From the NCBI RefSeq assembly GCF_021403115.1, contig NZ_JAJSSH010000003.1:62001-126000 (forward strand): 64,000 bases of DNA, read 5' to 3'. This document shows positions 15,538-49,826 of the stretch, in pieces. Every line of letters starts with the position of its first letter. Position 1 is the first letter of the stretch. The notes under the pieces are model-generated. The model was given only the letters and a program-made list of their open reading frames with translations. It had not been told where the DNA came from and ran no database searches. This DNA is from Sphingobium sufflavum (GTDB lineage: Bacteria; Pseudomonadota; Alphaproteobacteria; Sphingomonadales; Sphingomonadaceae). Made by a program: the position numbers and the translations under genes.

Positions 15538-15566
15538 ATAAATCCTACTGATATAGTAGAGATTAT
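15538..15566 (-). promoter_or_regulatory. Putative sulfur-regulon operator, site A
   Basis: A 29-bp dyad ATAA-N3-CTACT-N5-AGTAG-N3-TTAT, perfect in its stated arms. It is the best palindrome of the set and matches core CTAY-N7-RTAG exactly (15545-15559). It lies 60-88 bp before the rhodanese start. Regulator unproven. Confidence 0.65.
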
Positions 15567-15603
15567 CTTTAGGGGGTGGCGGACGGCGCGGAGCGGAGGC
15601 GGT

Positions 15604-16959
15604 TCAGGCTTTTTCCTCCAGCAATTCCTCGATCACGACGGCGGTGGTCAGGCGCGTCGGCTGGATCGGGGCGGGCGGGGAGCCGTCGGCTTTCTGCGGC
15701 AGGTCGGCAAAGGCGTCGTCGAATCGGTTGGCGTTGCGCAGCGCCGGGAACAGCCAGGCCCATAGCCCGGCCACGACCAGCGTGCAGGCTCCGCCCAGCA
15801 CGACGGCGGGCACGACCCCGATCAGGGATGCGACGAAACCCGACTGCACGTCGCCCAGCTCGTTGCGGGCGCTGCCGAACATCATGTTGATGGAGGTGAC
15901 GCGCCCGCGCATGTCGTCATGCGTGGAAAGCTGGACCAGCGTCTGGCGGATGAAGCCGCCGATCATCTCCGCCGCGCCCAGCAGGATCAATACCAGCACC
16001 GAGAGGATGAAGATACGGGAGATGCCGAACAGGATGACCGTCCCGCCATAGAGGGTGACGGACGCGAACAGCCATGTGCCGACCTTGTCGCGCAGGGGGC
16101 GGTGGGCGAGCAGCAGGCCGGTCGCCGCCGCGCCGATCGCGGGGGCGCTCCGCAAGATGCCAAAGCCGCCCTCGCCGACGTGCAGAACTTCATGCGCGTA
16201 GACCGGCAGCATCGCGGTTGCGCCGCCGAGCAGCAGCGCGAACAGGTCGAGCGTGGTCGCGCCGAAGATCAGGCGGTTGCGCCAGATATAGCTGAGACCG
16301 CTGAACAGATGGGCGATGCTGGCCTGCCGGTTGTCCGCCCCCCTGCTGCGCGTCCGCACCAGCGCGGCGAAGAGGAAGGAGGCGAAATAGCAGGCGGCGG
16401 CGAGCGCATAGGTCGGCGCCTCGCCAAAGGCATAGAGGGTGAAGCCGACGATGGCCGGGCCGACGACGTTGGAAATCTGGAAGGCGGAGGAGGTCCAGGC
16501 GACGCCATTGGGGAAATGGGCGCGGGGCAGCAGGTGCGGCATCCACGCCATGGCGGTGGGCATGGAGAAGGTCTTGCCCGCGCCGAACACCGCCGCGGCC
16601 AGATAGAAATAGAGGGGCGTCGTCGCATGGCCGAGCGACAGGCCGACAAAGCTGAGCGCGGAGAGCACCAGCACGAGCTGCGACATCTGGTAGACGCGCC
16701 GCCGCTCCAGCCGGTCGGCGGCCTGTCCGGCGGGCAGGGTGGACAGCACCACCGGGATGAACACCGCCATGCCGATCAGGCCGAGCGCCAGCGGATCGCG
16801 GGTCAGCGTGTAGATCTGCCACCCCAGCGCCGGCATCATGATGTTGGTGCCGAAATTATTGGTGATCCGCGCCAGGAAGAACATCCGGTAATCGCGAAAG
16901 GCAAAGGCGGCGTAGGGATGGTCGACGGGGGGAAGGGCGGCGGTCGCCGGGCTGGTCAT
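15604..16959 (-). CDS. MFS transporter, EntS-like drug/metabolite exporter
   Basis: A 451-residue protein with about twelve hydrophobic segments and the loop-2/3 motif GQAADRLERRR typical of the major facilitator superfamily; the overall pattern is that of the EntS/MFS_3 exporters. It starts 18 bp after the ABC gene at 16978-18831 and so is the third gene of an exporter operon. The C-terminus (about 415-451) is a cytoplasmic tail. Its substrate is unknown; placement in the sulfur island under operator site B suggests export of a by-product or toxic sulfur compound, which is inference. Confidence 0.85.
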   Translation of the reverse strand: MTSPATAALPPVDHPYAAFAFRDYRMFFLARITNNFGTNIMMPALGWQIYTLTRDPLALGLIGMAVFIPVVLSTLPAGQAADRLERRRVYQMSQLVLVLSALSFVGLSLGHATTPLYFYLAAAVFGAGKTFSMPTAMAWMPHLLPRAHFPNGVAWTSSAFQISNVVGPAIVGFTLYAFGEAPTYALAAACYFASFLFAALVRTRSRGADNRQASIAHLFSGLSYIWRNRLIFGATTLDLFALLLGGATAMLPVYAHEVLHVGEGGFGILRSAPAIGAAATGLLLAHRPLRDKVGTWLFASVTLYGGTVILFGISRIFILSVLVLILLGAAEMIGGFIRQTLVQLSTHDDMRGRVTSINMMFGSARNELGDVQSGFVASLIGVVPAVVLGGACTLVVAGLWAWLFPALRNANRFDDAFADLPQKADGSPPAPIQPTRLTTAVVIEELLEEKA

Positions 16960-16977
16960 GGTAACGGGGATTCCCGG

Positions 16978-20726: not shown

Positions 20727-20745
20727 AACCCGTCCCCAAATTCCC

Positions 20746-20774
20746 TTAATTCATACCAGTATTATAGACATATA
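20746..20774 (-). promoter_or_regulatory. Putative sulfur-regulon operator, site B
   Basis: TTAATTCATACCAGTATTAT followed by AGACATAT aligns with sites A, C and G; the core is ATAC-N7-ATAG (one mismatch). On the minus strand the site contains an exact TATAAT that could be the -10 element of the ABC operon, so protein bound here would cover the promoter. Confidence 0.55.
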
Positions 20775-20881
20775 TTGGATGCAAATGTCCCCTGCCCTTT
20801 TCCCTTTGTGAAAATTTTATAAAAATCCTTTTTGTGCAATATGTTGGGATGGTGGTTCGGGTGTGTGCGATCATGGCTTGA

Positions 20882-20910
20882 GAATTTTCTATCAAATCGG
20901 TAGTGAATTT
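20882..20910 (+). promoter_or_regulatory. Putative sulfur-regulon operator, site I
   Basis: TCTATCAAATCGGTAGTGAA contains an exact CTAT-N7-GTAG core (20889-20903) with the A/T-rich arms of the other sites. It is about 110 bp before ATG 21008, the same distance as site C from the GST gene. The frame-open GTG at 20903 falls inside it, arguing against that GTG as a start. Confidence 0.55.
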
Positions 20911-21007
20911 GGATCGTGACAAGGACGGCAAGGTCCGGGGCGGGAATCAGGCAGAGCGATTCCCGCGTTCCGGGCGCGTCGATCCCGGAGACTCTGGAAT
21001 TTTGACT

Positions 21008-22405: not shown

Positions 22406-22407
22406 CA

Positions 22408-22436
22408 GTAATTCCTACCAATATGATAGAATATAT
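22408..22436 (+). promoter_or_regulatory. Putative sulfur-regulon operator, site C
   Basis: GTAATTCCTACCAATATGAT followed by AGAATATAT holds an exact CTAC-N7-ATAG core (22415-22429). TATGAT within it could serve as a -10 element. It lies 102-130 bp before the GST start and only 3 bp after the stop of the preceding gene. Confidence 0.6.
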
Positions 22437-22537
22437 GTTGATCGGGGCCATGCAGGCCGGTTAGAGCCGATGGCGGAACGGCCATTCCGCCCACGCGATA
22501 TGGGATCGCGGCGGCAGGAATGGCGTGGAGAGTCTTC

Positions 22538-25955: not shown

Positions 25956-25976
25956 GATATTCCCTGCTTAATATAT

Positions 25977-26005
25977 GCAATCTCCATAGAAGCAGTAGAG
26001 ATTAT
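25977..26005 (-). promoter_or_regulatory. Putative sulfur-regulon operator, site D
   Basis: Its right half AGTAGAGATTAT is identical to that of site A; the left half has CCAT where CTAT is expected (core CCAT-N7-GTAG, 25984-25998). It lies 22-50 bp before the TonB-receptor start. Confidence 0.55.
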
Positions 26006-26114
26006 CGCAAGGGCCTATCCGGGTAGATGTTGTTTAGGACGCCAAAGCCAGGCTGTGGGGCTTTGGCTGGCGATAGCGTGTCGGACCGCTGTGTGGATGG
26101 GTAGAGGAAAGGGG

Positions 26115-26203: not shown

Positions 26204-27250
26204 TCAGGCGTCGGCGCTTTCCAGCGACGGGATCGTATCCAATAGGATGCCGGGCGCGATGTCCGCCGCCAGCGCCAGCGGCGCGGGGTCGATCCAGTTG
26301 TCGAAGTCGAAGTCCTGGATGAAGCCTTCGGCGACGAGGAAGTCCTTCTGCTGGCGCAGGCCCTGCACGTTCAGCGGGGACAGGGCGACGGTGAAGCGTT
26401 CGTGCAGGTGCGGGCCGAAGCCGCGACGGACGGCCGCCTCGCTGGCATGGGTTTCCGCCGCGATGGCGCGAACGACCTCTTCGGGATGGGTGGCGGCCCA
26501 TTCGGCCGTTTTTTGCAAGACGGCGAGATAGCGGGCGACGATTTCCGGGTGTTCGCGCGCCAGCGTGCCATCGACGGTGATGGGGCGGGGCGTCCCGGCG
26601 TTGACGCGGGCGAGCGGATTGTCCTGCGCGTTGATGTCGAGAATGGCGCGGAAGCCATGTTTCTCGATCAGGGTCGCGCTGACCGCGCCCTTGGCATAGA
26701 TGGCGTCGGCCTTGCCGGACAACAGCGCCTCTGCGCCGAGGTGGACGCGCTCGCCGTCGCGCTGCTCGCGCAGGTCGAAGTCGCCGCCCCCTAGATCGAC
26801 GATGGTCACTTCGTCGCGACCGATGCCGCCAATCTCCAGCGCGGTGAGCAGGCCGCGCAGATCCTGCGCGCGGCCGATGTCGACGATCTCGCTGTCATGG
26901 AGCGGCAGGCCGAGGCGCGCGCCGCGCAACTGCTCGACGGTTTCGATGGCGCTGTCGGCACGCACGAGGATCAACTGCTCCTCATCGACCCAGGTGATGC
27001 CCACGACCACCGTGTCGCGGCCCAGCCCCCGCGCCCAGAGCGGCGGCACATTGCCACCCTCCCGGAACATGTTGGGATGGGTATGGTCGTAATGCGAACG
27101 GCGGACAGCCTTGTTCTCCGCCGCGCGGATGGATTCCAGCGCAATGCCCGCCTGCGCAAATTCCGCATGCAGCCAGCGGAAATGCTGGGCGATGCCGGAT
27201 GTCGTTGGCACGGGGCAGCGCGTGTACCAGAGGGCGTTGGGTTGGGTCAT
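26204..27250 (-). CDS. DszB-like sulfinate desulfinase (copy 1), SBP-fold cytoplasmic enzyme
   Basis: A 348-residue protein with the type II periplasmic-binding-protein fold but no signal peptide, so it should be cytoplasmic. By eye it aligns with 2'-hydroxybiphenyl-2-sulfinate desulfinase DszB: YTRCPVPT gives Cys12 (DszB Cys27), SHYDHTHPNMFREGG gives His53 and Arg63 ten residues apart (DszB His60, Arg70), followed by NVPPL (DszB EIPPL). These are the catalytic residues for C-S cleavage releasing sulfite. It is often annotated simply as an ABC substrate-binding protein. GGAG lies 6 bp before the ATG. Last gene of the OYE/SBP operon. A homologue lies at 49925. The native substrate is unknown. 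Confidence 0.78.
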   Translation of the reverse strand: MTQPNALWYTRCPVPTTSGIAQHFRWLHAEFAQAGIALESIRAAENKAVRRSHYDHTHPNMFREGGNVPPLWARGLGRDTVVVGITWVDEEQLILVRADSAIETVEQLRGARLGLPLHDSEIVDIGRAQDLRGLLTALEIGGIGRDEVTIVDLGGGDFDLREQRDGERVHLGAEALLSGKADAIYAKGAVSATLIEKHGFRAILDINAQDNPLARVNAGTPRPITVDGTLAREHPEIVARYLAVLQKTAEWAATHPEEVVRAIAAETHASEAAVRRGFGPHLHERFTVALSPLNVQGLRQQKDFLVAEGFIQDFDFDNWIDPAPLALAADIAPGILLDTIPSLESADA

Positions 27251-27296
27251 GACAGTCTCCTGACGCTTTCGGAAGAGGGAGAGAGAGGGGCGGCGA

Positions 27297-29968: not shown

Positions 29969-30024
29969 TCACGCCTCCCAGAACGTGGGTCGAGCTTAGG
30001 GGCGGCTTATCGACAAGCAAATAA

Positions 30025-30053
30025 ATAAAACCTATAGGGTCAGTAGAATATTC
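30025..30053. promoter_or_regulatory. Putative sulfur-regulon operator, site E (divergent promoters)
   Basis: ATAAAACCTATAGGGTCAGT followed by AGAATATTC holds an exact CTAT-N7-GTAG core (30032-30046). It lies 57-85 bp from the OYE start and 89-117 bp from the FrdA-like start, so one site could serve both operons. Confidence 0.6.
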
Positions 30054-30141
30054 TTTCGCGCCCGTGACGAGCCTCTACCCTAGGGGGGGACGGCCCGACC
30101 GGGCCGCTGGCCGGACGCAAGGCGCGTGATCGGGGAGATAT

Positions 30142-33669: not shown

Positions 33670-33698
33670 TGAATGTCTATCGAACTAATAGGGATATA
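33670..33698 (+). promoter_or_regulatory. Putative sulfur-regulon operator, site H
   Basis: TGTCTATCGAACTAATAGGG holds an exact CTAT-N7-ATAG core (33677-33691) in an A/T-rich patch that contrasts with the GC-rich surroundings. It is the only promoter-like stretch before the ssu operon, although the ssuA start is about 900 bp further on. Confidence 0.6.
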
Positions 33699-33713
33699 GG
33701 GTAAGGTCTCTCC

Positions 33714-37259: not shown

Positions 37260-37615
37260 CGATGCGGGGCTTGATGCGGGCGGCCATGGCTTTGGAGGAT
37301 GAGAGGGTGACGATGGAGCGTATGTTCATGAGGCCGGTCGTCCGCCGGGCTGCCGCCGCGCTGCTGATGCTGGGCGTGGCGGGCGCGCCGCTGCCCGCGG
37401 GCGCGCGGACGATCGCGATCGCCGCCGACGAGGGAGACTCCAGCGGCTGGGCCAGCCAGGATTCGGGCGATGCCGCCCGGGACATCGCCGACGCCCGCGC
37501 GCAGGAGGTGCGGGCGGAGCCGCGTCCGGTGGTGGTCGATCCCCATCCGCTGGCCGACCTGCCGTCCCACCCGAAGGTCGCCGCCGCCGGTCCCCGGTCG
37601 CTGTCCCCGGCATAG
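37256..37615 (+). CDS. Small putative exported hypothetical protein
   Basis: An open frame starting with GTG that overlaps the ssuB stop (GTGA), or with internal ATGs at 37313 or 37328. The latter gives MRPVVRRAAAALLMLGVAGA, which looks like a signal peptide cleaved near AGA-RT; the remainder (about 70 residues) is Pro/Ala/Asp-rich and not recognisable. It could be a secreted accessory protein of the operon or a chance frame. No catalytic motif is seen. Confidence 0.4.
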   Translation: MTMRGLMRAAMALEDERVTMERMFMRPVVRRAAAALLMLGVAGAPLPAGARTIAIAADEGDSSGWASQDSGDAARDIADARAQEVRAEPRPVVVDPHPLADLPSHPKVAAAGPRSLSPA

Positions 37616-37635
37616 GGGCAGCCCGCGCCACCCCG

Positions 37636-37694
37636 CTTTTTTCAATCCCGCCTTTTTTCAATCCCCTGTTTTGACCCAATCCCCTGTTTTGACG
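37636..37694 (+). repeat. Two overlapping short tandem duplications
   Basis: TTTTTTCAATCCC occurs twice in succession, and CAATCCCCTGTTTTGACC occurs twice immediately after. They form an A/T-richer spacer before the NAD(P)H-binding gene. Confidence 0.8.
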
Positions 37695-37707
37695 GAGTCG
37701 TCCGATT

Positions 37708-38358
37708 ATGAGCATTGCACTGTTGGGAGCCGCCGGTCGCATCGGTTCCGAAATTCGCCAGGAGGCGCTGCGGCGCGGGCATGACGTCACCGCCATCGTC
37801 CGCACACCCGGCCGGATCGAGGCGGCGGACGGCCTGAGCGAGGCGGTCGCGGACGCCTATGACGCGGACTCCATCGCGGCGGCGCTGGCGGGGCAGGAGG
37901 CGCTGATCAGCGCGTTCAGCCCCGACCCGTCCGAACCGATCGAGGGCAAGCCCGAACGGCTGCGCCAGTCCCATGCCGCCATATTGGCGGGCGCGCGCAA
38001 GGCGGGGGTCAAGCGGGTCATCCTGGTCGGCGGCGTCGGCAGCCTGTGGGCCGCCCCCGGCCTGCTGGTCGTCGACTCGCCGGAATATCCGCAGGCCAAC
38101 CGGGGCCACACGCTGGCCAATATCGAGATTTTGCGCGGCTTGCGGGAGGAGGGCGACGATCTGGACTGGACCTATGTCTCGCCCCCGCGCCGGATCGAGG
38201 CGGGCGAGCGCACCGGCATTTTCCGCCTGTCCAAGAACGATCTGCTGCGCGACGACGCCGGGGAAAGCCGCATCTCCCGCGCCGACTTCGCCATTGCGGT
38301 GATCGATGAGCTGGAAAAGGGCGCGCATGTCCGCGGCCGCTTCACCGTAGCCTATTGA
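37708..38358 (+). CDS. NAD(P)H-binding atypical SDR (YwnB/BLVRB-like)
   Basis: A 216-residue Rossmann protein beginning MSIALLGAAGRIGSEIRQEA (GxxGxxG dinucleotide motif at 7-12) with AIVRTPGRI after strand 2, as in YwnB/YhfK and biliverdin-IX-beta/flavin reductase-like atypical SDRs. It lies between ssuB and the DszC-like gene, 11 bp before the latter's ATG. Because DszC/SsuD-type enzymes need FMNH2 and no standard flavin reductase is seen here, this protein is a candidate NAD(P)H:flavin reductase; that is inference. Confidence 0.8.
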   Translation: MSIALLGAAGRIGSEIRQEALRRGHDVTAIVRTPGRIEAADGLSEAVADAYDADSIAAALAGQEALISAFSPDPSEPIEGKPERLRQSHAAILAGARKAGVKRVILVGGVGSLWAAPGLLVVDSPEYPQANRGHTLANIEILRGLREEGDDLDWTYVSPPRRIEAGERTGIFRLSKNDLLRDDAGESRISRADFAIAVIDELEKGAHVRGRFTVAY

Positions 38359-38369
38359 ACGGACGCCCC

Positions 38370-39707
38370 ATGACCCAGCATCAATCCGTCGCCACCCATA
38401 TCGACGCGGGCAAGGTGGAGCGGCCCGATCAGGCCGCCACCCAGATCGCGCAGGGGTGGGGGCAGGGGCCGAGCGCCCGATACGAGGAACTGGCCGCGCC
38501 CTTTCGCCCGATCTTTCGCCGTATCCGGGAGGATGCGGTGGTCCGCGACGCGGAACGCCGCCTGCCGTTCGAGGAGGTGGGGTGGCTGAAGCAGGCGGGC
38601 TTCACCACGTTGCGCGTGCCGGTGGAACTGGGCGGCTATGGCGTCACCCTGCCCGAACTGCTCAACCTGCTGATCGAACTGTCGGAGGCGGACCCCAATA
38701 TCACCAACATCCTGCGTCCCCATCTGGGCGTGACGGAGGATCTGCTGAACAGCGGCAATGCGGCGCACCGCACCCACTGGCTGACGCGGATCGCGGCGCG
38801 GGAAACCTTCGGCAACGGCTTTTCGGAGACGACCGGCAATGTCGGCGCGATCAGCACCAGCCTGGTGCAGGACGGCGACGAGTGGGTGCTGAACGGCAAG
38901 AAATATTACACCACCGGCACGCTGTTCGCGGACTGGATCAACCTGGGCGCGGTGGATGAGAAGGGCGAGTCCACCGGCGGCATCATCCCGCGCCACGCGC
39001 CGGGGGTTGAGGTGATCGACGACTGGAACGGCTTTGGCCAGATGCTGACCGGCAGCGGCACGACCCTGTTCGACAATGTCCGCATCCCCGCCGCGCTGGT
39101 GAACCCGGAGAAGGGCCGCGCCCGCTATGTCGGCGGCCTGTTCCAGCTCATCCACCTCGCCACGCTGGCGGGGATCGGGCGGGCGGCGGCCAATGATGTC
39201 GCGCGCCTCGTCGCGGAACGATCCCGCGCCTATGGCCATGGCAACGCCGCAGAGGCGCGGCACGACCCGCAGATACTGGCCGTCGTCGGGCGGGTGCGCG
39301 GCGCGGCCTATGCGGCGGGCGCCACCGTGCTGAAGGTCGCGGAGGCGCTGGAGCGTGTCCATGAGCATAATCGTTCGGGCGACAAGGCGGCGGAGGAGCT
39401 GGCGGGCGCGCTGGCCGATGTCGAGATCAACGAGACGGTGACGGTCATCAGCGAGCTGATCCTGAACGCCACCACCGCCCTGTTCGATGCGCTGGGCGCG
39501 TCGGGGACGGACCGCAACCATGGCCTCGACCGGCACTGGCGCAACGCCCGCACTATCACCTCGCACAATCCGCGCATCTACCGCGACCGGATCGTGGGCG
39601 CGTTCGCGGTGAATGGCGCGCTGCCCGCCCTCGTCCGGCGCAACGTCAAAGATGACGGCGCGGCCCCCGGCGGCAGCGACAACAGCGCATCGCCGCCGAT
39701 CCTGTGA
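38370..39707 (+). CDS. DszC/SfnC-like FMN-dependent monooxygenase (acyl-CoA dehydrogenase fold)
   Basis: A 445-residue protein of the acyl-CoA-dehydrogenase fold. The family signature is that of DszC-type sulfur monooxygenases: VPVELGGYG (about 83-91), NILRPHLG with His118 (by eye at DszC His92), GNGFSETTG and GKKYYTTG (about 148-184), and the C-terminal GLDRHWRNARTITSHNPRIY with His399 (at DszC His391). DszC oxidises dibenzothiophene to its sulfone; SfnC-like relatives act in sulfone/sulfonate scavenging. No acyl-CoA catalytic Glu context is seen. It sits between the SDR and rhodanese genes in the ssu operon. The true substrate is unknown. Confidence 0.85.
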   Translation: MTQHQSVATHIDAGKVERPDQAATQIAQGWGQGPSARYEELAAPFRPIFRRIREDAVVRDAERRLPFEEVGWLKQAGFTTLRVPVELGGYGVTLPELLNLLIELSEADPNITNILRPHLGVTEDLLNSGNAAHRTHWLTRIAARETFGNGFSETTGNVGAISTSLVQDGDEWVLNGKKYYTTGTLFADWINLGAVDEKGESTGGIIPRHAPGVEVIDDWNGFGQMLTGSGTTLFDNVRIPAALVNPEKGRARYVGGLFQLIHLATLAGIGRAAANDVARLVAERSRAYGHGNAAEARHDPQILAVVGRVRGAAYAAGATVLKVAEALERVHEHNRSGDKAAEELAGALADVEINETVTVISELILNATTALFDALGASGTDRNHGLDRHWRNARTITSHNPRIYRDRIVGAFAVNGALPALVRRNVKDDGAAPGGSDNSASPPIL

Positions 39708-39753
39708 CCCGCCGCCGCCGCTTCACACCCTTTCCTGCACCGGGAGTCCTGCC

Positions 39754-40887
39754 ATGACCATACGCACCATCCACCGCGCCACGCTCCAGACGTGGCTGAC
39801 CACCGGCACCCCCGGCCAGAGCGCGGAGTTCGCGTTGCTGGACCTGCGCGATGAGCAGGATTTCGCCAAGGGCCAGCCGCTGTTCGCCACCAACCTGCCG
39901 CTGCGTCGGCTGGAGGCGGACGTCGCCCGCTTCGTGCCGCGCAGGAGCGTGCGGACCGTGCTGGTCGATGACGGCAATGGCGATGCCGCCAAGGGCGCGG
40001 CGATCCTCGACGCGCTGGGTTATGACGATGTCGCCATCCTGTCCGGCGGCGTGCCGGGCTGGCTGTCGGACAGCCCCAATGGCCTGCCCACGTTCGATAT
40101 TGCGGGCAATATCTTCACCGTCGCGGTGGCCGACCAGCGCGGCACCCCGGCGCTGACCGTGGCGGCGCTGAAGGCCGCGCAGGATGCGGGCGAGGATATT
40201 CTCGTCCTCGACACGCGCACGCCGGAAGAGTTCGCCCGGTCGCACATCCCCGGTTCGCGCAGCCTGCCGGGCGGGGAATTGCTGCAACGCTATCTCGACT
40301 ATGTGCCGTCGGCGCAGACGCATGTCGTCGTGACCTGCGCCTGGCTGGCGCGCGCGATCATCGGGGCGCAGACGCTGATTTCGGCGCGGGTGCCGAACCG
40401 CGTCTCCTATCTGGTGGAGGGCACGCAGGCCTGGTCCCGCGCCGGTTATGCGCTGGAGACGGGGATCAGCGACAGCTTCGACGGCTATAGCGAGGCGGCG
40501 GCGGCCTTTGGAGCGGCTCATGCGCGCAATCTGGCGGACGAGGCGGGCGTGCAATGGATCGACGCGGCGGCGGTCGGCCAGTGGCAGGGCGAGGCGGACC
40601 GGACGACCTATCTGCTCGACGTGCGGCTGCCCGCGCCGTTCGAGGCGGGGCATCTGGCGGGGTCGATCTCCGCCCCCGGCGGCCAGTTGCTGGCGGTGTC
40701 GCATCGCACCGTGGCGGTGCGTGGCGCGCGCATCGTGCTGATCGACGACAGCGAGGGCGATGTGCGGGCGATCACCACCGCCTATTGGCTCAAGCAGCGC
40801 GGATGGGATGCGCGCGTTTTCGACGGGACGATTCAGGACCGGTTGCCGGGAGCGGATGCGCGGGAGCGGATCGCCCAGCCGGCATGA
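39754..40887 (+). CDS. Triple-domain rhodanese-like sulfurtransferase (copy 2)
   Basis: A 377-residue paralogue of the protein at 14369-15478, sharing its order of motifs (DGNGDAAKG loop in domain 1, TCAWLARA with Cys195 in domain 2, DDSEGDVRA in domain 3). Again only the middle domain has the Cys-x4-Arg loop. Last gene of the ssu/DszC-like operon, with CGGGAG 8 bp before the ATG. It presumably traps sulfane sulfur or links sulfite release to assimilation; this is inferred from family and context. Confidence 0.87.
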   Translation: MTIRTIHRATLQTWLTTGTPGQSAEFALLDLRDEQDFAKGQPLFATNLPLRRLEADVARFVPRRSVRTVLVDDGNGDAAKGAAILDALGYDDVAILSGGVPGWLSDSPNGLPTFDIAGNIFTVAVADQRGTPALTVAALKAAQDAGEDILVLDTRTPEEFARSHIPGSRSLPGGELLQRYLDYVPSAQTHVVVTCAWLARAIIGAQTLISARVPNRVSYLVEGTQAWSRAGYALETGISDSFDGYSEAAAAFGAAHARNLADEAGVQWIDAAAVGQWQGEADRTTYLLDVRLPAPFEAGHLAGSISAPGGQLLAVSHRTVAVRGARIVLIDDSEGDVRAITTAYWLKQRGWDARVFDGTIQDRLPGADARERIAQPA

Positions 40888-41082: not shown

Positions 41083-41544
41083 TTAACTGGCGCGGGAGGT
41101 CAGCAGGCCCGTGTCGTCTTCCGGCGCGAATTCGGCGGAGAGCGCATCCGCGATGGTGCGGTTGTCGAGCACGGCGGAGAGCTGCTCGCGCGCCTCGATC
41201 ATGATGCTGCGCAGGTTGCACGCCTGCTCGTCCGGGCAGTCGAGGCAGCGGCGGTAGAATTTCTTGCTGGCGCAGTGAATGAGGGCCAGCGGGCCGTCGG
41301 TCACGCGGATCACGTCGCCAAAGGTGATCTCCTTCGCCGTGCGGGCCAGCGCATAGCCGCCCGCCTTGCCGCGCGTGCTGTGGACGATCCCGGCGATCTT
41401 GAGGTCGAGGAGGATCGCCTCCAGAAATTTGCGCGGGACATTGGCCGCCGCCGCAATTTCTGCCGTCGGATGGGGCTTGTCGGGATTTTGTGTGGCGAGA
41501 TGGATGAGCGCCTTCAGAGCATAACGCGATTGCTGCGACAGCAT
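41083..41544 (-). CDS. Rrf2-family transcriptional regulator with Cys cluster
   Basis: A 153-residue winged-helix regulator starting MLSQQSRYALKALIHLATQN, the classical Rrf2 N-terminus, with NVPRKFLEAILLDLKIAGIV (about 36-55) as recognition helix region and a wing at STRGKAGGY. Cys91, Cys100, Cys103 and Cys109 form a possible Fe-S or thiol-sensing cluster, though the spacing differs from IscR (Cys92/98/104). Rrf2 proteins include CymR, the cysteine-metabolism repressor, and IscR. It is the only regulator inside the island and so the first candidate to bind the shared operator. A weak operator-like site (J) lies about 46-60 bp upstream. Confidence 0.88.
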   Translation of the reverse strand: MLSQQSRYALKALIHLATQNPDKPHPTAEIAAAANVPRKFLEAILLDLKIAGIVHSTRGKAGGYALARTAKEITFGDVIRVTDGPLALIHCASKKFYRRCLDCPDEQACNLRSIMIEAREQLSAVLDNRTIADALSAEFAPEDDTGLLTSRAS

Positions 41545-41897: not shown

Positions 41898-41929
41898 TTG
41901 ACAATCTCTATCGTTTTAATCAAGTTTAT
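41898..41929 (+). promoter_or_regulatory. Promoter with perfect -35 and weaker operator, site F
   Basis: TTGACA (41898-41903) is an exact -35 box, 17 bp before CAAGTT as a weak -10. The overlapping ACAATCTCTATCGTTTTAAT aligns on the minus strand with site A's arm (ATAGAGATTGT), but only the left core half CTAT is intact. It lies 42-73 bp before the dppB-like start. Confidence 0.5.
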
Positions 41930-41970
41930 GGATATTCAACAACAGCACGCCCATTGCCGTTCCCCGGCGC

Positions 41971-42996
41971 ATGGCCGTTGCCCCGGAACCCAACTCAGGC
42001 ATGCCCACCCTTTCGCGTACAGCCCGCATCGCGGTCCGAACCGGACTGCACGCCTTGCCGACGGCGCTGGGAATCGTCATCATCAGCTTCCTGCTGCTCC
42101 AGTTCGCGCCCGGCGACGCCGTGGACGTACTGGCGGGGGAGGCCGGCTCTGCGACGGCGGAGGGCATGGCGGAGATGCGCGCCCGCTATGGTCTCGACCA
42201 GCCGGTGCTGACCCAGTTGTGGGCTTATCTGTCCAATCTGGTGCATGGCAATCTGGGCTGGTCGCCGCGCTACAACATGCCGGTCACGCAACTCATCTGG
42301 GACCGGGTGCCGGAATCGCTGGTGCTGACCGGTGCGGCGCTGGTGCTGGCGCTGATCGTCGGCATCGGGCTGGGCGCGGTGATGGCGGCGCGGGAAGGGC
42401 GGCTGACCGACCGGCTGCTGTCGGTGCTGTCGCTGGTCTTCTACTCCGTGCCCGCCTTCTGGATCGGCCTGATGCTGATCGTCCTCTTCTCCATCAAGCT
42501 CGGCTGGCTGCCCAGCGGCGGGGCGGGGACTATCGGTTCCTCCGCCACCGGCGTCGCGGCGTTGCTCGACAAGTTGCGCTACATGGTGCTGCCGACCATC
42601 TCGCTCTCGCTCTTCTACATCGCCATCTACGCCCGGCTGGCCCGCGTCTCCATGATCGAGGCGAAGGGGCAGGATTTCGTGCGGACCGCGCGGGCCAAGG
42701 GGCTGAGCGAGCGGCGCATCCTGTTCCGCCATGTGCTGCGCAACGCGCTGCTGCCCGTGACCACGGTCGCGGGCATGCATGTCGGCGGGATGCTGGGCGG
42801 GTCGGTGGTGATCGAGACCATCTATGGCTGGCCGGGTCTCGGCCGGCTTGCCTATGAGGCGGTGATGGGGCGGGACTTCACCGTCCTGCTCGGCATCCTC
42901 CTCTTCTCATCCTTGCTGGTGATCGTCGCCAATGCGCTGGTCGACGTCCTGCACAGTATATTGGACCCACGGGTCGGGGGTAGCGATGCAGCCTGA
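41971..42996 (+). CDS. DppB/GsiC-like ABC permease
   Basis: A 341-residue membrane protein of the peptide/nickel/opine (family 5) importers: an N-terminal helix (GIVIISFLLLQFAPGDAVD), a periplasmic loop with MRARYGLDQPVL, and the EAA loop EAKGQDFVRTARAKGLSERR (about 231-250) before VETIYGWPGLG-type (IETIYGWPGLGRLAYEAV) motif. ATG 42001 (MPTLSRTARIAV) is an alternative start; neither has a clear ribosome-binding site. First gene of a long operon and the natural permease for the two family 5 SBPs at 27.3 and 51.3 kb. Confidence 0.88.
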   Translation: MAVAPEPNSGMPTLSRTARIAVRTGLHALPTALGIVIISFLLLQFAPGDAVDVLAGEAGSATAEGMAEMRARYGLDQPVLTQLWAYLSNLVHGNLGWSPRYNMPVTQLIWDRVPESLVLTGAALVLALIVGIGLGAVMAAREGRLTDRLLSVLSLVFYSVPAFWIGLMLIVLFSIKLGWLPSGGAGTIGSSATGVAALLDKLRYMVLPTISLSLFYIAIYARLARVSMIEAKGQDFVRTARAKGLSERRILFRHVLRNALLPVTTVAGMHVGGMLGGSVVIETIYGWPGLGRLAYEAVMGRDFTVLLGILLFSSLLVIVANALVDVLHSILDPRVGGSDAA

Positions 42997-44008
42997 GAGT
43001 GTGACCCAGTTCCAGCCGGTCCCCGCCAAGCCATCCGGCGAGCCGCCGCTGGTCGCGGTGCCGGTCGAGGCGACGCCCGCCCCGTCCATAATAGTGCCGC
43101 TGCCGGGCCTGTCCGTGCCCGCCATTCCCGTGCCCGCCATCCCCCTGTCCGGGCCGCGCCCGCGCGGGGCGAAGCGGGCGCTGGCGACGGTGCGGCGCAA
43201 CCCGCTGGCGCTGGCGGGCGGCACGATCCTGATCCTGATGGCGCTGATCGGCCTGTTCGCGCCATTGTTGTTCCCCGGCGACCCGCTGGCCATCGTGGCG
43301 GAGCCGTTCATCTGGCCGGGCAGCGATGCGGCCCATCCGCTGGGCACGGACTCGCTGGGCCGCGACCTGCTGTCCGGCATCGCCCATGGCGCGGGGGTGT
43401 CGCTGCGCGTCGGCCTGTCGGCCACGGCGCTCGGCCTCGTGATCGGCGTGGGTATTGGCGCTGTCGCGGGCTATTTCGGCGGCTGGACCGATGCGGTGCT
43501 GTCCCGCCTGATCGAGATTTTCCAGACGCTGCCCAATTTCGTGATGCTGGTCGTGCTGGTCGCCATCGCGCAGCCGAGCGTCACCACCCTGTCCATCGCC
43601 ATCGCGGTCGTCACCTGGCCCACCGTGGCGCGGCTGGCGCGGGCGGAGTTCCGCTCCATCCGCGAAAAGGATTTCGTGATGGCGGCGCGCAGCCTGGGTT
43701 TCGGCCATGGCCGCATCATCCTGTCCGAAATTCTGCCCAGCGCATTGCCGCCGCTGATCGTCACCGCGTCGGTCATGGTCGCGTCCGCCATCCTGATGGA
43801 ATCGGCCCTGTCCTTCATGGGGCTGGGCGATCCCAATGTGGTGAGCTGGGGCAGCATGATCGGGTCGGGCCGCGAATATCTGCGCACCGCCTGGTATATG
43901 TGCGCGCTGCCCGGTTTCGCGATCATGCTGACCGTGCTGGCGCTGAACCTGATCGGCGACGCGCTGAACGAGATCCTCAATCCGCGCAGCCATGAGGACC
44001 GGCGATGA
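42986..44008 (+). CDS. DppC/GsiD-like ABC permease with proline-rich N-terminal extension
   Basis: A 340-residue permease. Residues about 1-60 are an unusual Pro/Val-rich tail (VPAIPVPAIPLSGPRP) before the DppC-typical first helix; then HPLGTDSLGRDLLSGIAHGA (about 119-138) and the EAA-like AARSLGFGHGRIILSEILPS loop. It overlaps the dppB-like gene by 11 bp and the next gene by 4 bp (ATGA). Confidence 0.9.
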   Translation: MQPESVTQFQPVPAKPSGEPPLVAVPVEATPAPSIIVPLPGLSVPAIPVPAIPLSGPRPRGAKRALATVRRNPLALAGGTILILMALIGLFAPLLFPGDPLAIVAEPFIWPGSDAAHPLGTDSLGRDLLSGIAHGAGVSLRVGLSATALGLVIGVGIGAVAGYFGGWTDAVLSRLIEIFQTLPNFVMLVVLVAIAQPSVTTLSIAIAVVTWPTVARLARAEFRSIREKDFVMAARSLGFGHGRIILSEILPSALPPLIVTASVMVASAILMESALSFMGLGDPNVVSWGSMIGSGREYLRTAWYMCALPGFAIMLTVLALNLIGDALNEILNPRSHEDRR

Positions 44009-45033
44009 ACGGTCCCATCGTGCAGCCGCGCGTGCCCGCCGTACCCCTGCTGGCGGTCGAGGATCTGCGCATCGGGTTCGGCGCGCACCAGCCGGTGAGC
44101 GGCGTGGGATTCGACGTGCGCGAGGGCGAGACGCTGGCCATCGTCGGGGAATCCGGGTCCGGCAAGTCGCTGACGGCGCTGTCGATCATGGGTCTGTTGC
44201 CGTCCTCCGCGCGGATCGCGCCGGGCAGCAGCATAAGGTTCGAGGGGCGGGAGATCAGCGCCCTGTCGGTCAAGGACGCGCGGGCACTGCGCGGCGGGTC
44301 GATCGGCATGATCTTTCAGGAACCGATGACCTGCCTCAACCCGGTCATGACCATCGGGGACCAGGTGGCGGAGGCGCTGCGCCAGCACCAGCCGCTGACG
44401 CGCAAGGCGGCGAAGGCGCGGGCGGTCGAGCTGCTCGACCTCGTCCGCATCCCCGACCCGCACCGGCGCGTGGCGGACTATCCGCACCAGTTGTCGGGCG
44501 GGATGCGCCAGCGGGTGATGATCGCCATCGCCGTCGCCTGCGGCCCGCGCCTGTTGATCGCGGACGAGCCGACGACCGCGCTGGACGTGACCATCCAGGC
44601 GCAGGTGCTGGACCTGATCGACCGGTTGCGCCGCGAACTGTCGATGGCGGTGCTGCTCATCACCCATGACCTGGGCGTCGTCGCGCAATGGGCGGACCGG
44701 GTGGTGGTGATGTACGCGGGCCGCAAGGTGGAGCAGGGCGAACCGGACCCGCTCTTCGCCCGGCCGCTGCACCCCTATACGCAGGGCCTGCTGACCGCCT
44801 CGCCCCGGCTCGACGACAATTTCCATTACAGCGACGGGCCGCTGAACGAGATTCCGGGGTCGATCAGCTCCGTCGCGGGGCAGGTCGGCTGCGCCTTTGC
44901 GCCGCGCTGCGCCCATGCGTGCACCGCCTGCCGGGAAACCATTCCCGTGCTCCACCACCTCACCGACGGGCGGCAGGTCGCCTGCCCCGTCCTCATTACG
45001 GAAGAGCATCGTGTCGCTGCTTTCCATCGCTGA
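44005..45033 (+). CDS. DppD-like ABC ATPase
   Basis: A 342-residue ATPase: [20 protein letters not shown] (about 45-64), [12 protein letters not shown] (Q-loop region typical of oligopeptide ATPases), [29 protein letters not shown] and THDLGVVAQ. The C-terminal [16 protein letters not shown] zinc/Fe-like Cys motif is the oligopeptide-ATPase extension. First ATPase of the pair. Confidence 0.92.
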
Positions 45034-45943
45034 TCTCAGCACCCATTTCCGCCTGCCCAACGGGGCGCTGCGCGCGCTGGACGGCGTGTCCCTCGACCTT
45101 CAGGCGGAAGAGACGCTGGGCATCGTGGGCGAATCCGGGTGCGGCAAGTCCACGCTGGGCAAGACCATCCTGCGCCTCGTCCAGCCGACATCCGGGTCGA
45201 TCCGGTTCGCGGGCGAGGATGTGACGACGGTCCCCACGCGCAAGCTGGCCCAGTTCCGCCGCCGCGCGCAGATGGTGTTCCAAGACCCGTTCGCCTCGCT
45301 CAACCCGCGCCACACGATCCGCAAGATCCTGACCGATCCGCTGGTCGTCCATGGCATCGGCGACAAGCCGGAACGGGCGCGGCGGGTGGAGGACATCGTG
45401 CAGCGGGTCGGCCTCGACGCTGGTGCGCTCGACCGCTATCCGCATGAATTCTCCGGCGGCCAGCGGCAGCGGGTCGGCATCGCCCGCGCGCTGATCCTCG
45501 AACCCGATCTGGTGATCTGCGACGAGCCGGTGTCCGCGCTCGACCTGTCCATCCAGGCGCAGACGCTGAACCTGCTCAGCCGGATGAAGGCGGACCTCAA
45601 CCTCTCCTATATCTTCATCTCGCACGACCTGTCGGTGGTCCGCTATTTCACCGACCGGGTGCTGGTCATGTATCTGGGCCGGGTGGTGGAGAGCGCGCCG
45701 ACGCGGGCGCTGTGGTCCGCGCCGCGCCATCCCTATACCCGCGCGCTGATGGACGCGGTGCCCGATCCGGCCCGCCGCCGCCATGCCGCGCCGATCAAGG
45801 GCGACCTGCCCAGTCCGCAGGATGTGCCGACCGGTTGCCGCTTTCACCCGCGCTGCCCGCTGGCGACGGAGATTTGCACGCGGGTCGAGCCGACGCTCGA
45901 CCGGCTGGGCGACGGCCATAGCGCCGCCTGCCACCACGCCTGA
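45011..45943 (+). CDS. DppF-like ABC ATPase (GTG start)
   Basis: A 310-residue ATPase starting at GTG 45011 ([20 protein letters not shown]), inside the end of the previous gene. Motifs: VGESGCGKSTLGKTILRL, FQDPFASLNPRHTI, FSGGQRQRVGIARALI, ICDEPVSALDLSIQ, SHDLSVVRYF, and the C-terminal CRFHPRCPLATEIC extension. It completes the importer; no SBP is adjacent. Confidence 0.9.
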   Translation: MSLLSIADLSTHFRLPNGALRALDGVSLDLQAEETLGIVGESGCGKSTLGKTILRLVQPTSGSIRFAGEDVTTVPTRKLAQFRRRAQMVFQDPFASLNPRHTIRKILTDPLVVHGIGDKPERARRVEDIVQRVGLDAGALDRYPHEFSGGQRQRVGIARALILEPDLVICDEPVSALDLSIQAQTLNLLSRMKADLNLSYIFISHDLSVVRYFTDRVLVMYLGRVVESAPTRALWSAPRHPYTRALMDAVPDPARRRHAAPIKGDLPSPQDVPTGCRFHPRCPLATEICTRVEPTLDRLGDGHSAACHHA

Positions 45944-45970
45944 CCCCCCTTTATTTCCACAGGAGCATAT

Positions 45971-47041
45971 ATGGTAGACTATAGCTATCTCGGCCGTTCG
46001 GGCCTCAAGGTATCGCCGCTGACGCTGGGCACGATGATGTTCGGCGGCGAGACGGACGAGGCCACGTCGCACCGCATCATCGACAAGGCGCGCGAGCAAG
46101 GCATCAACGCCATCGACACCGCCGACGGCTATGCCAAGGGCGCGTCGGAAGAGGTCGTCGGGCGCGGCATCAAGGCGAACCGCGACCATTGGGTGCTGTC
46201 CACCAAGTTCGCCAATCCGCGCGGCCCCGGCCCGAACCAGCGCGGCCAGTCGCGCAAGTGGATCATCGAGAGCGTCGAGGCCAGCCTGAAGCGTCTGGGC
46301 ACCGACTATATCGACCTGCTCTATTTCCACCGGTCGGTCTTCGACGCGCCGCTAGGCGAGGCCGTGCGCGCGCTGGGCGACCTGATCCAGCAGGGCAAGC
46401 TGCGCTATTTCGGTGTGTCCAACTTCCGCGGCTGGCGCATTGCGGAGGTGTCGCAACTGGCCGACCAGTTCAACATCGACCGGCCCATCGCCAGCCAGCC
46501 GCTGTATAATATCTTCAACCGTCAGGCGGAGGCGGAGCAGTTGCCCGCCGCCAACTATTATGGCCTGGGCGTCGTCTCCTACAGCCCGCTGGCGCGCGGC
46601 GTGCTGACCGGCAAATATGCACCGGGTCAGGCCGCGGCGGCGGACACCCGCGCGGGCCGCGCCGACAAGCGCATCCTGGAGACGGAATGGCGCCCGGAAT
46701 CGATCGCGCTGGGCCAGAAGGTCGCGGACTATGCGCGCGGTCGCGGCGTCGACCCGGTCCACTTCGCCATCGCGTGGGTGCTGAACAACCGGCTGCTGAC
46801 CTCCACCATCACCGGCCCGCGCACCGAAGCGCACTGGGACAGCTATATCGGCGCGCTGGACGTCAAGCTGACGGCGGAGGACGAGGCGTTCATCAATGAT
46901 CTGGTGCCGACCGGCCATCCGTCCACCCATGGCTTCAACGATCCGAGCCACCCGGTCGAGGGCCGCGTGCCCTATTCGGTGCCGGGCGTCGTGCCGGCCC
47001 TGCCGATCGAGCGCGCGGTGCGCGAGGCGGTCGTCGCCTGA
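45971..47041 (+). CDS. Aldo/keto reductase
   Basis: A 356-residue TIM-barrel NADPH oxidoreductase: YLGRSGLKVSPLTLGTMMFG (6-25), catalytic tetrad visible as AIDTADGYAKG (Asp, Tyr), STKFANP (Lys) and DLLYFHRSV (His), and the C-terminal nucleotide-binding ITGPRTEAHWDSY. AGGAGC lies 5 bp before the ATG. In this operon, aldehydes formed by oxidative desulfonation are reasonable substrates (inference). Confidence 0.92.
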   Translation: MVDYSYLGRSGLKVSPLTLGTMMFGGETDEATSHRIIDKAREQGINAIDTADGYAKGASEEVVGRGIKANRDHWVLSTKFANPRGPGPNQRGQSRKWIIESVEASLKRLGTDYIDLLYFHRSVFDAPLGEAVRALGDLIQQGKLRYFGVSNFRGWRIAEVSQLADQFNIDRPIASQPLYNIFNRQAEAEQLPAANYYGLGVVSYSPLARGVLTGKYAPGQAAAADTRAGRADKRILETEWRPESIALGQKVADYARGRGVDPVHFAIAWVLNNRLLTSTITGPRTEAHWDSYIGALDVKLTAEDEAFINDLVPTGHPSTHGFNDPSHPVEGRVPYSVPGVVPALPIERAVREAVVA

Positions 47042-47147
47042 TGATCCGTCCCGGCCCGCGCCCCGGCCCGACCGGACGCGCGGGCCGGGACGCCCGTCTT
47101 CTCCCCATGCGGCCCGGGCCGCTGCCGTTCCCTGCCGAGATGCTGCC

Positions 47148-48395
47148 ATGACCATCCCCTTTGTAGATATTGCGATCATCGGCGGCGGACCGGGCGGGCT
47201 GGCGCTGGCGCAGGGGCTGCGCAAGCATGGCATCGACGTGGCGGTGTATGAGCGTGATCCTGTCCGCGCCGATTATGTGCAGGGTTTCCGCCTCGGCCTG
47301 CGCCAGCGCGGGCTGGATGCGCTGGAGGCGAACCTGCCGCCGCACCTGCTGGAGGCGTTTCTGGGCACGCTGGGCTATGCCCCTTCGGAAAGCCTGATCT
47401 TCGACGAATATTTCCATCCGCTGGCCGCGCCGGAATGGGCGCGCGGGCCGGAGGACCGGCATGGCGAGAAATCGGTCAGCCGGATCACGCTGCGCCAGAT
47501 ATTGCTGTCCGGCCTTGACGACATCGTCCATGTCGGCCGCGTCTTCGACCATTATGCGGAACAGGCGGACGGCACGGTCGTCGCTCATTTCACGGACGGT
47601 TCGGCGGTGCGCGCCAATGTGCTGGTTGGCGCGGATGGCGCGAATTCGGCGGTGCGCCGGCAACTGCTGCCCGATTTTCGCATCGTGGACACCGGTATGC
47701 GGCGGCTAGCGGGCAAGATGACGCTGGACGCCGCCGCGCGGCACGCCATTTCGCCGCTGCTCCTCGACTATCGCACCTCCATCCGGCCGACGGCGGGGCG
47801 GCGGATCATGTTCTCGGCGCATCGGGTCGATCCCGCCGCCTATGCCCGGTTCGGCCTGATCGGGCAGGACGACGCCACCCACCGCGACATCGCCGGTTTC
47901 CATTTCGACAACACCACCAGCTATGTCTGGTGGAACACCGCCTATGCGCTGAACGAACTGGCGACGGACGCGGAGCTGGCGCGGCTGGACGGGGCGGGGC
48001 TGATCGAGCTGCTGCTGCGCCATGTCGGCCATTGGGACGAGCGGATCGTGACGCTGATCCGCAACAGCGACCCGTCGACCGTCGCGATGCTGAAGGTCCG
48101 CACGTCCGAACCGGGCGCGGTGTGGGAGACAGGCCCCGTCACCCTGCTGGGCGATGCGATCCACAGCATGACCTATTTCCAGGCGCTGGGCGGCAACAGC
48201 GCGCTGCATGACGCGGGGCTGCTCGCCGCACAATTGGTCGCGGCGCGCAATGGCGGCAAGCCGCTGCTCCCCGCTCTCCACGACTATGAGGAGGCGATGC
48301 GCGAGCATGGTTATGAGGCGGTGCGAACCTCCCTCTCCGCCATGCTGCGCAACGCCGCCGCCGATCCCGTTTCCGGCAGCGTCGCGGCCGCGTAG
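47148..48395 (+). CDS. FAD-dependent aromatic-hydroxylase-type monooxygenase
   Basis: A 415-residue flavoprotein of the PHBH/UbiH group: IAIIGGGPGGLALAQGLRKH (8-27, FAD motif), LVGADGANSAVRRQLL (DG motif, about 162-177) and LLGDAIHSM (GD motif, about 330-338). It would hydroxylate a ring or similar substrate with NAD(P)H and O2. Fifth gene after the Dpp-like transporter pair set and 36 bp before the DszA-like gene. The start is defined by the conserved FAD fold. Confidence 0.88.
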   Translation: MTIPFVDIAIIGGGPGGLALAQGLRKHGIDVAVYERDPVRADYVQGFRLGLRQRGLDALEANLPPHLLEAFLGTLGYAPSESLIFDEYFHPLAAPEWARGPEDRHGEKSVSRITLRQILLSGLDDIVHVGRVFDHYAEQADGTVVAHFTDGSAVRANVLVGADGANSAVRRQLLPDFRIVDTGMRRLAGKMTLDAAARHAISPLLLDYRTSIRPTAGRRIMFSAHRVDPAAYARFGLIGQDDATHRDIAGFHFDNTTSYVWWNTAYALNELATDAELARLDGAGLIELLLRHVGHWDERIVTLIRNSDPSTVAMLKVRTSEPGAVWETGPVTLLGDAIHSMTYFQALGGNSALHDAGLLAAQLVAARNGGKPLLPALHDYEEAMREHGYEAVRTSLSAMLRNAAADPVSGSVAAA

Positions 48396-48431
48396 CCGCG
48401 TCTGCCCTGCGATCTTTCAAGAAGGCCCATC

Positions 48432-49742
48432 ATGACCGACACCACCCGCCGACTGAATCTGAACGTCGGGATCAACACCACCGGCTATCTGGGCGCGGCC
48501 TGGACGCATCGCAGGGACGGCACGCGGCAGGACGTGTATGACCCCGCTTATTATCTGCGGATCGCCCGGCTGGCGCATCGCGGGGTCTTCGACGCGCTGT
48601 TCCTGTCCGACATGCCGTTGCTGCGCCCCGAACCGGGCAGCCGACCGCTGCACACGCTGGACCCGCTGATCCTGCTGACGTCGCTGGCGGCGCAGGTGCC
48701 GGACATCGGGCTGGTCGCCACCGTCTCCTCCACCTATAACTCGCCCTATAATCTGGCGCGGCGGGCGCAGTCGCTGGATATATTGTCGGGCGGTCGGCTG
48801 GTCCTGAACATCGTGTCCAACTTCGTGCCGGAAGTGGCGGCGAATTTCGGCAACGACCCGCTGCCCCCGCGCGAGATCCGCTATCCGCGCGCCGACGAAT
48901 TCCTCCAGGTCGCCAAGAAACTGTGGGCAAGCTGGGATCCGCGCCGTGACGGCGATATCGACCCCGGCCAGTTCTGGGGACCGGATTCGGCCCATCCGAT
49001 CGAGCATGACGGCGATTATTTCGCGGTGCGCGGCGCGTTGAACGTGCCGCGCGGGCCGCAGGGCCACCCCGTCATCGCGCAGGCGGGCGCGTCCGACTGG
49101 GGGCTGGACCTCGCCGCCAAGCATGGCGAGATCATCTATTGCAACATCCTGTCCCGCGCCGCCGGGCAATCCTTTCGCCAGAAGGTCAATGAACGGGCGG
49201 TGCGGTTCGGGCGTGATCCGTCGACCATCAAGCTGGTCCCCGGACTGGTCGCGATCATCGGGGAGAGCCGGGAGGAGGCGCTGCGCAAGCATGAGCTGTT
49301 CAGCGGCGCGGGATCGGAGGACGGCCTGCTCGCCCGGTTCGCGCGGGAGCATGGCATCGACCCCGCCGATTTCGACCCGGATGCGCCGCTGGACGGCGAG
49401 GATTTCATCCCCGACGGCGACCGCATCCAGGCGGTGGGCATGGGGCGCGGCTGGGCCGAACTGCTGACGCATGAGCGGCTGACCGCGCGGCAGGCGGTGC
49501 GGCGGGCGGAAGGGAACCATCGCCTCGTCCTCGGCACGGCGGAGGAGGTGGCCGACCAGATCATCGACCTGTGGGCGGATGGCACGGTGGACGGATACAC
49601 TTACCAGCCGCCACGCGCGCCGGACGACATCGAGGAGTTCGTCGACAAGGTGGTGCCCATCCTTCAGGATCGCGGCGTCTATCCGCGCGCCTATGAAGGG
49701 CGCACCGTGCGCGACCGCTATGGCCTGCCCTATCCCGACTGA
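48432..49742 (+). CDS. DszA/NtaA-family FMNH2-dependent monooxygenase
   Basis: A 436-residue bacterial-luciferase-like protein of the NtaA/SnaA/DszA subfamily: GAAWTHRRDG (about 18-27), STYNSPYNLARRAQSLDILS (about 99-118), RADEFLQVAKKLWASWD, VRGALNVPRGPQGHPVIAQA (about 196-215) and the C-terminal EFVDKVVPILQDRG followed by RTVRDRYGL, closely matching DszA at these places. DszA opens dibenzothiophene sulfone to a sulfinate; relatives cleave other C-S or C-N bonds. AAGAAGG precedes ATG 48432. Last gene of the Dpp-like operon, directly before the second DszB-like gene, as in dszAB order. Substrate unknown. Confidence 0.87.
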   Translation: MTDTTRRLNLNVGINTTGYLGAAWTHRRDGTRQDVYDPAYYLRIARLAHRGVFDALFLSDMPLLRPEPGSRPLHTLDPLILLTSLAAQVPDIGLVATVSSTYNSPYNLARRAQSLDILSGGRLVLNIVSNFVPEVAANFGNDPLPPREIRYPRADEFLQVAKKLWASWDPRRDGDIDPGQFWGPDSAHPIEHDGDYFAVRGALNVPRGPQGHPVIAQAGASDWGLDLAAKHGEIIYCNILSRAAGQSFRQKVNERAVRFGRDPSTIKLVPGLVAIIGESREEALRKHELFSGAGSEDGLLARFAREHGIDPADFDPDAPLDGEDFIPDGDRIQAVGMGRGWAELLTHERLTARQAVRRAEGNHRLVLGTAEEVADQIIDLWADGTVDGYTYQPPRAPDDIEEFVDKVVPILQDRGVYPRAYEGRTVRDRYGLPYPD

Positions 49743-49797
49743 CAGGCGCCGTCCGGTGGGGGCGGGGTAGCAGGGCTTGGCCGGGGCATAGATAATC

Positions 49798-49826
49798 TAA
49801 ATTCCTATGGATATTATAGGAGATAT
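49798..49826 (+). promoter_or_regulatory. Putative sulfur-regulon operator, site G
   Basis: TAAATTCCTATGGATATTAT followed by AGGAGATAT holds CCTAT-N7-ATAGG, an exact and extended core (49805-49819). It lies about 100-127 bp before the second DszB-like start, 56 bp after the DszA-like stop. Confidence 0.65.

Follow-up and report, generated by a model that had tools for sequence, protein, structure and literature searches.

The stretch considered here is a run of 64,000 nucleotides from Sphingobium sufflavum (contig NZ_JAJSSH010000003.1, positions 62,001 to 126,000; hereafter the window), which carries an organosulfur island whose operons are nearly all preceded by copies of one dyad and which includes rrf2, a gene for an Rrf2-family regulator. 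The original prediction, read by eye, had named ten such sites. Nine stand, namely the 8 main ones and that named 41898, whereas the tenth (J, at 41590) scores -7.9 and was dropped as an operator. The extended consensus, roughly ATAATTCCTAY-N7-RTAGGAATTAT, is symmetric and spans 31 bp. A symmetric 31-bp position weight matrix (PWM) was derived from the nine sites, and each was rescored while held out (leave-one-out, LOO). The sites, listed without strand, and the regulator gene are these:

15537..15567: operator site, PWM 37.5, LOO 33.8; precedes the rhodanese gene 14369-15535 (-)
20745..20775: operator site, PWM 30.1, LOO 24.2; precedes the ABC exporter operon 18828-20726 (-)
20881..20911: operator site, PWM 34.3, LOO 28.7; at the start of the FAD-NAD(P)-binding oxidoreductase gene 20903-22405 (+)
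22407..22437: operator site, PWM 38.1, LOO 35.2; precedes the GST gene 22520-23245 (+)
25976..26006: operator site, PWM 27.9, LOO 21.9; precedes the TonB receptor gene 23343-25955 (-)
30024..30054: operator site, PWM 28.9, LOO 22.4; between the divergent OYE operon (29968, -) and FrdA-like operon (30142, +)
33669..33699: operator site, PWM 30.5, LOO 25.5; about 750 bp ahead of ssuA, 34433 (+)
41900..41930: operator site, PWM 30.6, LOO 24.5; between rrf2 (41544, -) and oppB (41971, +)
49797..49827: operator site, PWM 32.3, LOO 27.1; precedes the DszB-like gene 49856-50965 (+)
41083..41544 (-): rrf2, Rrf2-family regulator (P0001), 153 aa, proposed repressor (PF02082, rrf2_super)

The dyad is well separated from its background. 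The nine sites score 27.9 to 38.1, with the next best position anywhere in the 64 kb at 12.0; held out, they score 21.9 to 35.2, against 10.6 to 13.6 for the best non-site position of the window. Markov-resampled intergenic DNA, the kind of shuffled control that the original prediction had proposed alongside matrix scans of the genome and of related sphingomonads, gave 0.04 matches above 20 per resample over 300 resamples, with a top random score of 28.3. All nine centers are intergenic in an island whose intergenic share is 7.9% (p about 1e-10, a value flattered because the sites were originally chosen within A/T-rich gaps). The exact core CTAY-N7-RTAG occurs 7 times in the window, at the 6 sites where it had been read and also at 24337, within the TonB-receptor gene; this last lies outside the top matrix scores and was set aside as a chance match. 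As had also been read, the cores at 20753 and 25984 have one mismatch each and that at 41908 (the site named 41898) has two. The nearest start, as mechanically called, is 7 to 98 bp away for 8 of the 9 sites; ssuA is about 750 bp off and not about 900. Site 20881..20911 overlaps the mechanically called GTG start of its oxidoreductase gene. What failed was the claim that three sites (B, C and F) overlap a -10 or -35 element, since the promoter scan finds a consensus promoter only over the 49805 site, where 49797..49827 overlaps the promoter-like TAGATA-17-TATTAT.

The dyad is also in excess across the whole genome. The bare core is not rare (51 genome matches; the reversed control pattern has 426), and the arms supply the specificity. 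With an extended pattern fitted to the window sites and its reverse as control, the genome holds 13 sites versus 0 at up to one mismatch and 25 versus 5 at up to two; the matches at up to three are mostly noise, because they number 86 versus 56. Eight of the 25 lie within the island and 17 elsewhere. Of the latter, 4 head TonB receptors (on contigs C13, C7, C12, and C31), one each precedes an MFS transporter and a FAD monooxygenase-like gene, one heads a run of aldo/keto reductase, tauD, ssuABC, and DszA-like genes, one lies 417 bp ahead of a peroxiredoxin gene, one is beside the rrf2 copy on C32, and one heads an SBP5 gene split into two open reading frames (ORFs).

Three places in the same genome are recorded in their own right. 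A second organosulfur island (L076, C12:444000-463900) has three good dyads and genes for a TonB receptor, an aldo/keto reductase, TauD, SsuABC-like proteins, a DszA-like protein, and a peroxiredoxin. On C21 (L083), two ORFs just below a good dyad together make up an SBP5 gene that shares about 70% identity with that of the island; the split reflects either a pseudogene or a sequence error. At C35:43289 (L080, 9296), the dyad is without mismatch and no gene start is called downstream of it; a glutamine-amidotransferase gene nearby points the opposite way, and a similar protein in locus L193 has a site about 80 bp ahead of its start.

The regulon reaches beyond the island and the genus, and across genomes the dyad keeps company with rrf2 and with sulfur genes. 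We surveyed 198 family genomes beyond our own, counting an Rrf2 relative at E <1e-28 and sites at up to one mismatch. The 100 genomes with a relative hold 75 sites versus 12 control matches, and the 98 without hold 42 versus 51. Twelve of the 69 listed sites (69 of 117, own genome excluded) are within 5 kb of an Rrf2 gene, where 0.23 would be expected. Seventeen stretches were read closely, a nonrandom sample picked for their sites: the dyad accompanies rrf2 and sbp-cysTWA in 5, precedes ssuCB-D-A operons in 2, and also precedes relatives of one TonB receptor family; it stands before SLC13-type-permease-like genes in 4, near a cysK-like gene in 1, and ahead of modABC-like genes, in the gap, in 2, these SLC13, cysK, and mod names resting on N-termini or weak similarity. 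With two mismatches allowed, the Novosphingobium guangzhouense genome contains 10 sites versus 3 control matches, and the four best are in an orthologous island. There the matrix finds six sites, at two TonB receptors, a dszB-like gene, opp/rrf2, a divergent SBP5/OYE pair, and a rhodanese gene, and the site in the rrf2-opp gap scores 22.7. Two sphingomonad genomes (L194, 7174; L196, 7472) have strong dyads in the gap that separates modABC-like genes from a divergently oriented neighbor, hinting that uptake of molybdate, a competitor of sulfate, may join the regulon.

Outside the Sphingomonadales the association is tighter. From 259 relatives found, 80 named ones were kept, 25 non-Sphingomonadales and 55 Sphingomonadales. 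A dyad scoring above 14 lies near rrf2 (from about 260 bp upstream to about 330 bp downstream of the gene) in 24 of the 25 non-Sphingomonadales loci, and one above 20 in 18; 200 permuted matrices on the same 25 loci gave a mean of 4.5 and a maximum of 12. Over all 80 loci there are 53 matches, against 5 to 20 in 20 permutations. Some loci have the dyad across the promoter of rrf2, some in the stretch that separates rrf2 from the next operon, and some in both places. In 22 of the 25, an Sbp-like gene with the same orientation as rrf2 begins no more than about 2 kb downstream, and 19 have a CysT-like gene downstream as well, several loci ending early; both were assigned by similarity to the proteins of locus L093 that NCBIfam calls Sbp and CysT. 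An NCBIfam check upheld all 4 of the Sbp assignments tested and the 1 CysT assignment tested. Three loci lack Sbp: L102 (a contig of 3.6 kb), L104, and L156, the last being also the sole locus of the 25 without a site. In the Parvibaculum group (for example, L094 and L100), the site is about 19 bp ahead of the rrf2 start and, by eye, over the -10 of a TTGACG-17-TACCCT-like promoter, and thus fits autorepression. On a later tree, site presence changes 5 times versus about 29 when shuffled, a clustering biased upward because ten family-genome rows were chosen for a nearby site; the 24 of 25 count was made without those rows.

Three further relatives have sulfur neighbors and weak sites, and are suggestive only. 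A 46% relative on Sinorhizobium meliloti pSymB (L201) adjoins a gene annotated as a sulfur acquisition oxidoreductase of the SfnB family (best dyad 13.7), and the C. sphaeroides locus has sbp-cysTW neighbors (best dyad weak, 15.0). On plasmid pOB3b1 of Methylosinus trichosporium OB3b (L203), a 44% relative is flanked on one side by a TonB receptor and on the other by a family 2A encapsulin whose cargo is a cysteine desulfurase, and each side has a weak dyad (14.6 and 16.5). A plasmid search gave 150 records with a relative, none of at least 60% identity.

The genes downstream of the sites in the window were named by Pfam and PDB sequence searches, 40 window proteins between 11989 and 59119 being scanned. 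The island encodes rhodaneses, an ABC exporter pair, an MFS protein, FAD oxidoreductases, a GST, and a TonB receptor, and these operons were assigned by the same sequence searches:

26204..29968 (-): OYE, SBP5, and DszB-like operon
30142..33362 (+): FrdA-like flavoprotein, 2Fe-2S protein, and luciferase-like (SsuD-like) monooxygenase operon
34433..40887 (+): ssuACB, NAD(P)H-binding protein, DszC-like monooxygenase, and rhodanese
41971..49742 (+): Opp-type ABC transporter, aldo/keto reductase, FAD-binding monooxygenase-like protein, and DszA/NTA-monooxygenase-like protein
49856..52897 (+): DszB-like protein and SBP5 binding protein

In the PDB search, the two DszB-like proteins match 2de2 (E 4e-16 and 1e-13), the DszC-like monooxygenase matches 4doy (E 7e-31), and the DszA/EDTA-monooxygenase-type protein matches 5dqp (E 4e-87) and the DszA structure 5tlc (E 7e-60). 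The Opp-type importer is accompanied by two SBP5 proteins in the island, and the reductase is of OYE type. The gap of about 1 kb at 33363-34432, which holds site 33677 and runs up to ssuA, has no ORF with the genome's codon usage (negative scores); its 292-aa ORF has no Pfam match, and the gap may represent either a long leader or the remains of a gene.

The sole transcription-factor match among the proteins scanned is P0001, which scores 130.3 bits against PF02082 (E 6.3e-38; cut-off 30) and 120.3 bits against NCBIfam rrf2_super TIGR00738 (cut-off 73.3), and so belongs to the Rrf2 family. It misses the equivalogs CymR (NF047409, 80.1 bits versus a cut-off of 195), IscR (TIGR02010, 70.8 versus 207.55), RirA (NF008886, 75.8 versus 193), and NsrR (NF008240, 67.5 versus 182). 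In its AlphaFold2 (AF2) model (pLDDT 81.7), a confidently predicted winged helix is accompanied by a long helix and by a cysteine loop that is poorly ordered and in part of low confidence; the fold neighbors are RsrR, IscR, CymR (2y75), and NsrR. Cysteines 91, 100, 103, and 109 (C-x8-C-x2-C-x5-C) are invariant in 29 of 29 relatives of the site-bearing group.

Taken together, we consider it very likely that a winged-helix repressor of the Rrf2 family, with a copy of its own in the island, uses the dyad as its operator and governs a sulfur-scavenging regulon. We infer that the island Rrf2 binds the dyad, that it represses rather than activates, and that sulfur is the signal; repression under sufficient sulfur is favored because sites overlap promoters (at 49805 and at rrf2 in the Parvibaculum group) and because of the biology of CymR. 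An Rrf2 dimer would sit on the promoters of sulfur-scavenging operons while reduced sulfur is plentiful and would come off under sulfur shortage, allowing joint production of TonB receptors, ABC importers, monooxygenases, and desulfinases. An Fe-S cluster or another cofactor that reports sulfur status may be bound at the four conserved cysteines. In other alphaproteobacteria the commonest setting of this regulon would be rrf2-sbp-cysTWA, and organosulfur islands would have taken up this operator too, the present one along with an additional rrf2.

Several observations weigh against this reading. In the Sphingomonadales, only 1 of the 55 named loci (N. guangzhouense) has a site beside rrf2 and 54 have none, so operator and rrf2 gene are not always linked; an Sbp-like gene is near rrf2 in 0 of the 55, and three site-less loci that were inspected have no obvious sulfur genes as neighbors. 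On the first tree, from which L013 was left out and in which L017 is a spurious long branch, 53 of the 54 site-less relatives form one well-supported branch. The four cysteines are no marker of the regulon, because they are invariant in that site-less group as well (54 of 54), and they may define a wider Rrf2 branch. The Azospirillum B510 rrf2 has neither a site nor an evident sulfur neighbor. In the window, the start of rrf2 is 371 bp away from site 41908, compared with 56 bp for oppB, and hence autoregulation of the island rrf2 is unproven. Our genome has no match to the sulfate-binding protein TIGR00971, Sbp operons being the typical neighbors elsewhere, and therefore sulfate probably enters via another transporter. 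About 5 of the 25 genome matches are expected by chance, and those outside the island include three without a called downstream gene, one intragenic, and one each before an AraC-type regulator, a transposase-like ORF, and a short ORF. Finally, the genome carries three related Rrf2 copies, in the island (C31), on C32, and on C23, and the latter two have no site immediately beside them (best scores -4.5 and 9.4), though sites stand about 0.6 to 3.8 kb away.

These copies qualify the claim of a single sulfur regulon. The shared operator of the rrf2-sbp-cysTWA, ssu, and tauD-containing operons and the clustering near rrf2 sustain a sulfur regulon, but "single" is unproven because the three copies could share the operator. 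It could even be that the C23 or C32 copy controls the island and that the island copy is redundant, specialized, or an activator, an unlikely arrangement but one we take seriously. Relatives of the C23 type at 69-76% lie near sites in four fetched loci (L185, L186, L191, and L192), three of them with cysK-like or sbp-cysTWA genes; the cysK-like gene, named from its N-terminus, is in L185 only. Against this, N. guangzhouense still has the island copy (83% identity) together with the island, and in both genomes a site lies between that copy and the facing opp operon.

Gammaproteobacteria are known to use LysR regulators in sulfur starvation: the activators CysB and Cbl of that family serve ssu and tau genes under sulfate starvation, the same physiological job as proposed here with a different family and a different operator. 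CTAY-N7-RTAG contains T-N11-A, the LysR-box dyad, and a LysR-like gene, judged from its N-terminus, adjoins the ssu site in L197. That the operator belongs to a CysB/Cbl-like LysR protein is nevertheless highly improbable: none matched among the 40 proteins scanned, the rest of the genome not having been searched for LysR, and such a protein is not expected to give a site beside rrf2 in 24 of 25 relatives or an excess that tracks Rrf2 presence. Least credible of all is an iron-related operator of the RirA or alphaproteobacterial IscR kind with TonB receptors as its main targets, for although the regulator is of the Rrf2 family, several TonB receptors are among the targets, and IscR of Rhodobacter sphaeroides represses iron-uptake genes via a 19-bp palindrome (passages of PMC4618611), the targets include sbp-cysTWA, ssu, tauD, and desulfinase-like operons, and P0001 falls well under the RirA and IscR cut-offs.

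For an Rrf2 repressor of sulfur scavenging, the closest functional parallel is CymR of Firmicutes, with alike regulon logic. CymR represses ssu and cysK in B. subtilis, with a CysK switch (passages of PMC3828012), and the family at large is described in parts of PMC9338935. The Bacillus and Staphylococcus CymR, a repressor of cysteine metabolism that works as a complex with CysK, is of the same family and among the nearest folds, but it lacks the cysteine loop in the alignment and differs in target genes, phylum, and equivalog score. Of the Fe-S regulators in the Rrf2 family, IscR, NsrR, and RsrR share the fold of the P0001 model. In IscR and NsrR a cysteine-rich loop lies ahead of the long helix, as in P0001, whereas the cysteine spacing of IscR differs; P0001 is set apart from IscR, RirA, and NsrR by their cut-offs and by its targets in sulfur acquisition. 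In Rhodococcus qingshengii IGTS8, an actinobacterium, an Rrf2 protein detected only in dibenzothiophene culture was proposed as a global sulfur regulator; in the relevant passages of PMC8557817 its gene has no sulfur neighbors and no operator is given. Among the matches listed, no open-access paper treats sulfur acquisition in Alphaproteobacteria as an Rrf2 regulon; regulon databases and subscription papers lay outside that search, so that a prior description is possible; by the open-access literature only, the regulon is apparently undescribed, as had been supposed.

The alphaproteobacterial switch for sulfur scavenging seems little described in the open literature searched. As a tentative generalization, a four-cysteine Rrf2 might be the general sulfur-limitation repressor of Alphaproteobacteria, replacing CysB/Cbl and using the CTAY-N7-RTAG operator; a cluster or thiol switch in its loop would sense reduced sulfur, and islands would join the regulon via the operator, sometimes with their own rrf2. 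The operator-regulator pair would offer a handle on the sulfur-scavenging switch and predicts sulfur roles for uncharacterized TonB receptors and monooxygenases, and it would set a sulfur-sensing branch of the Rrf2 family beside those that sense iron, NO, and Fe-S.

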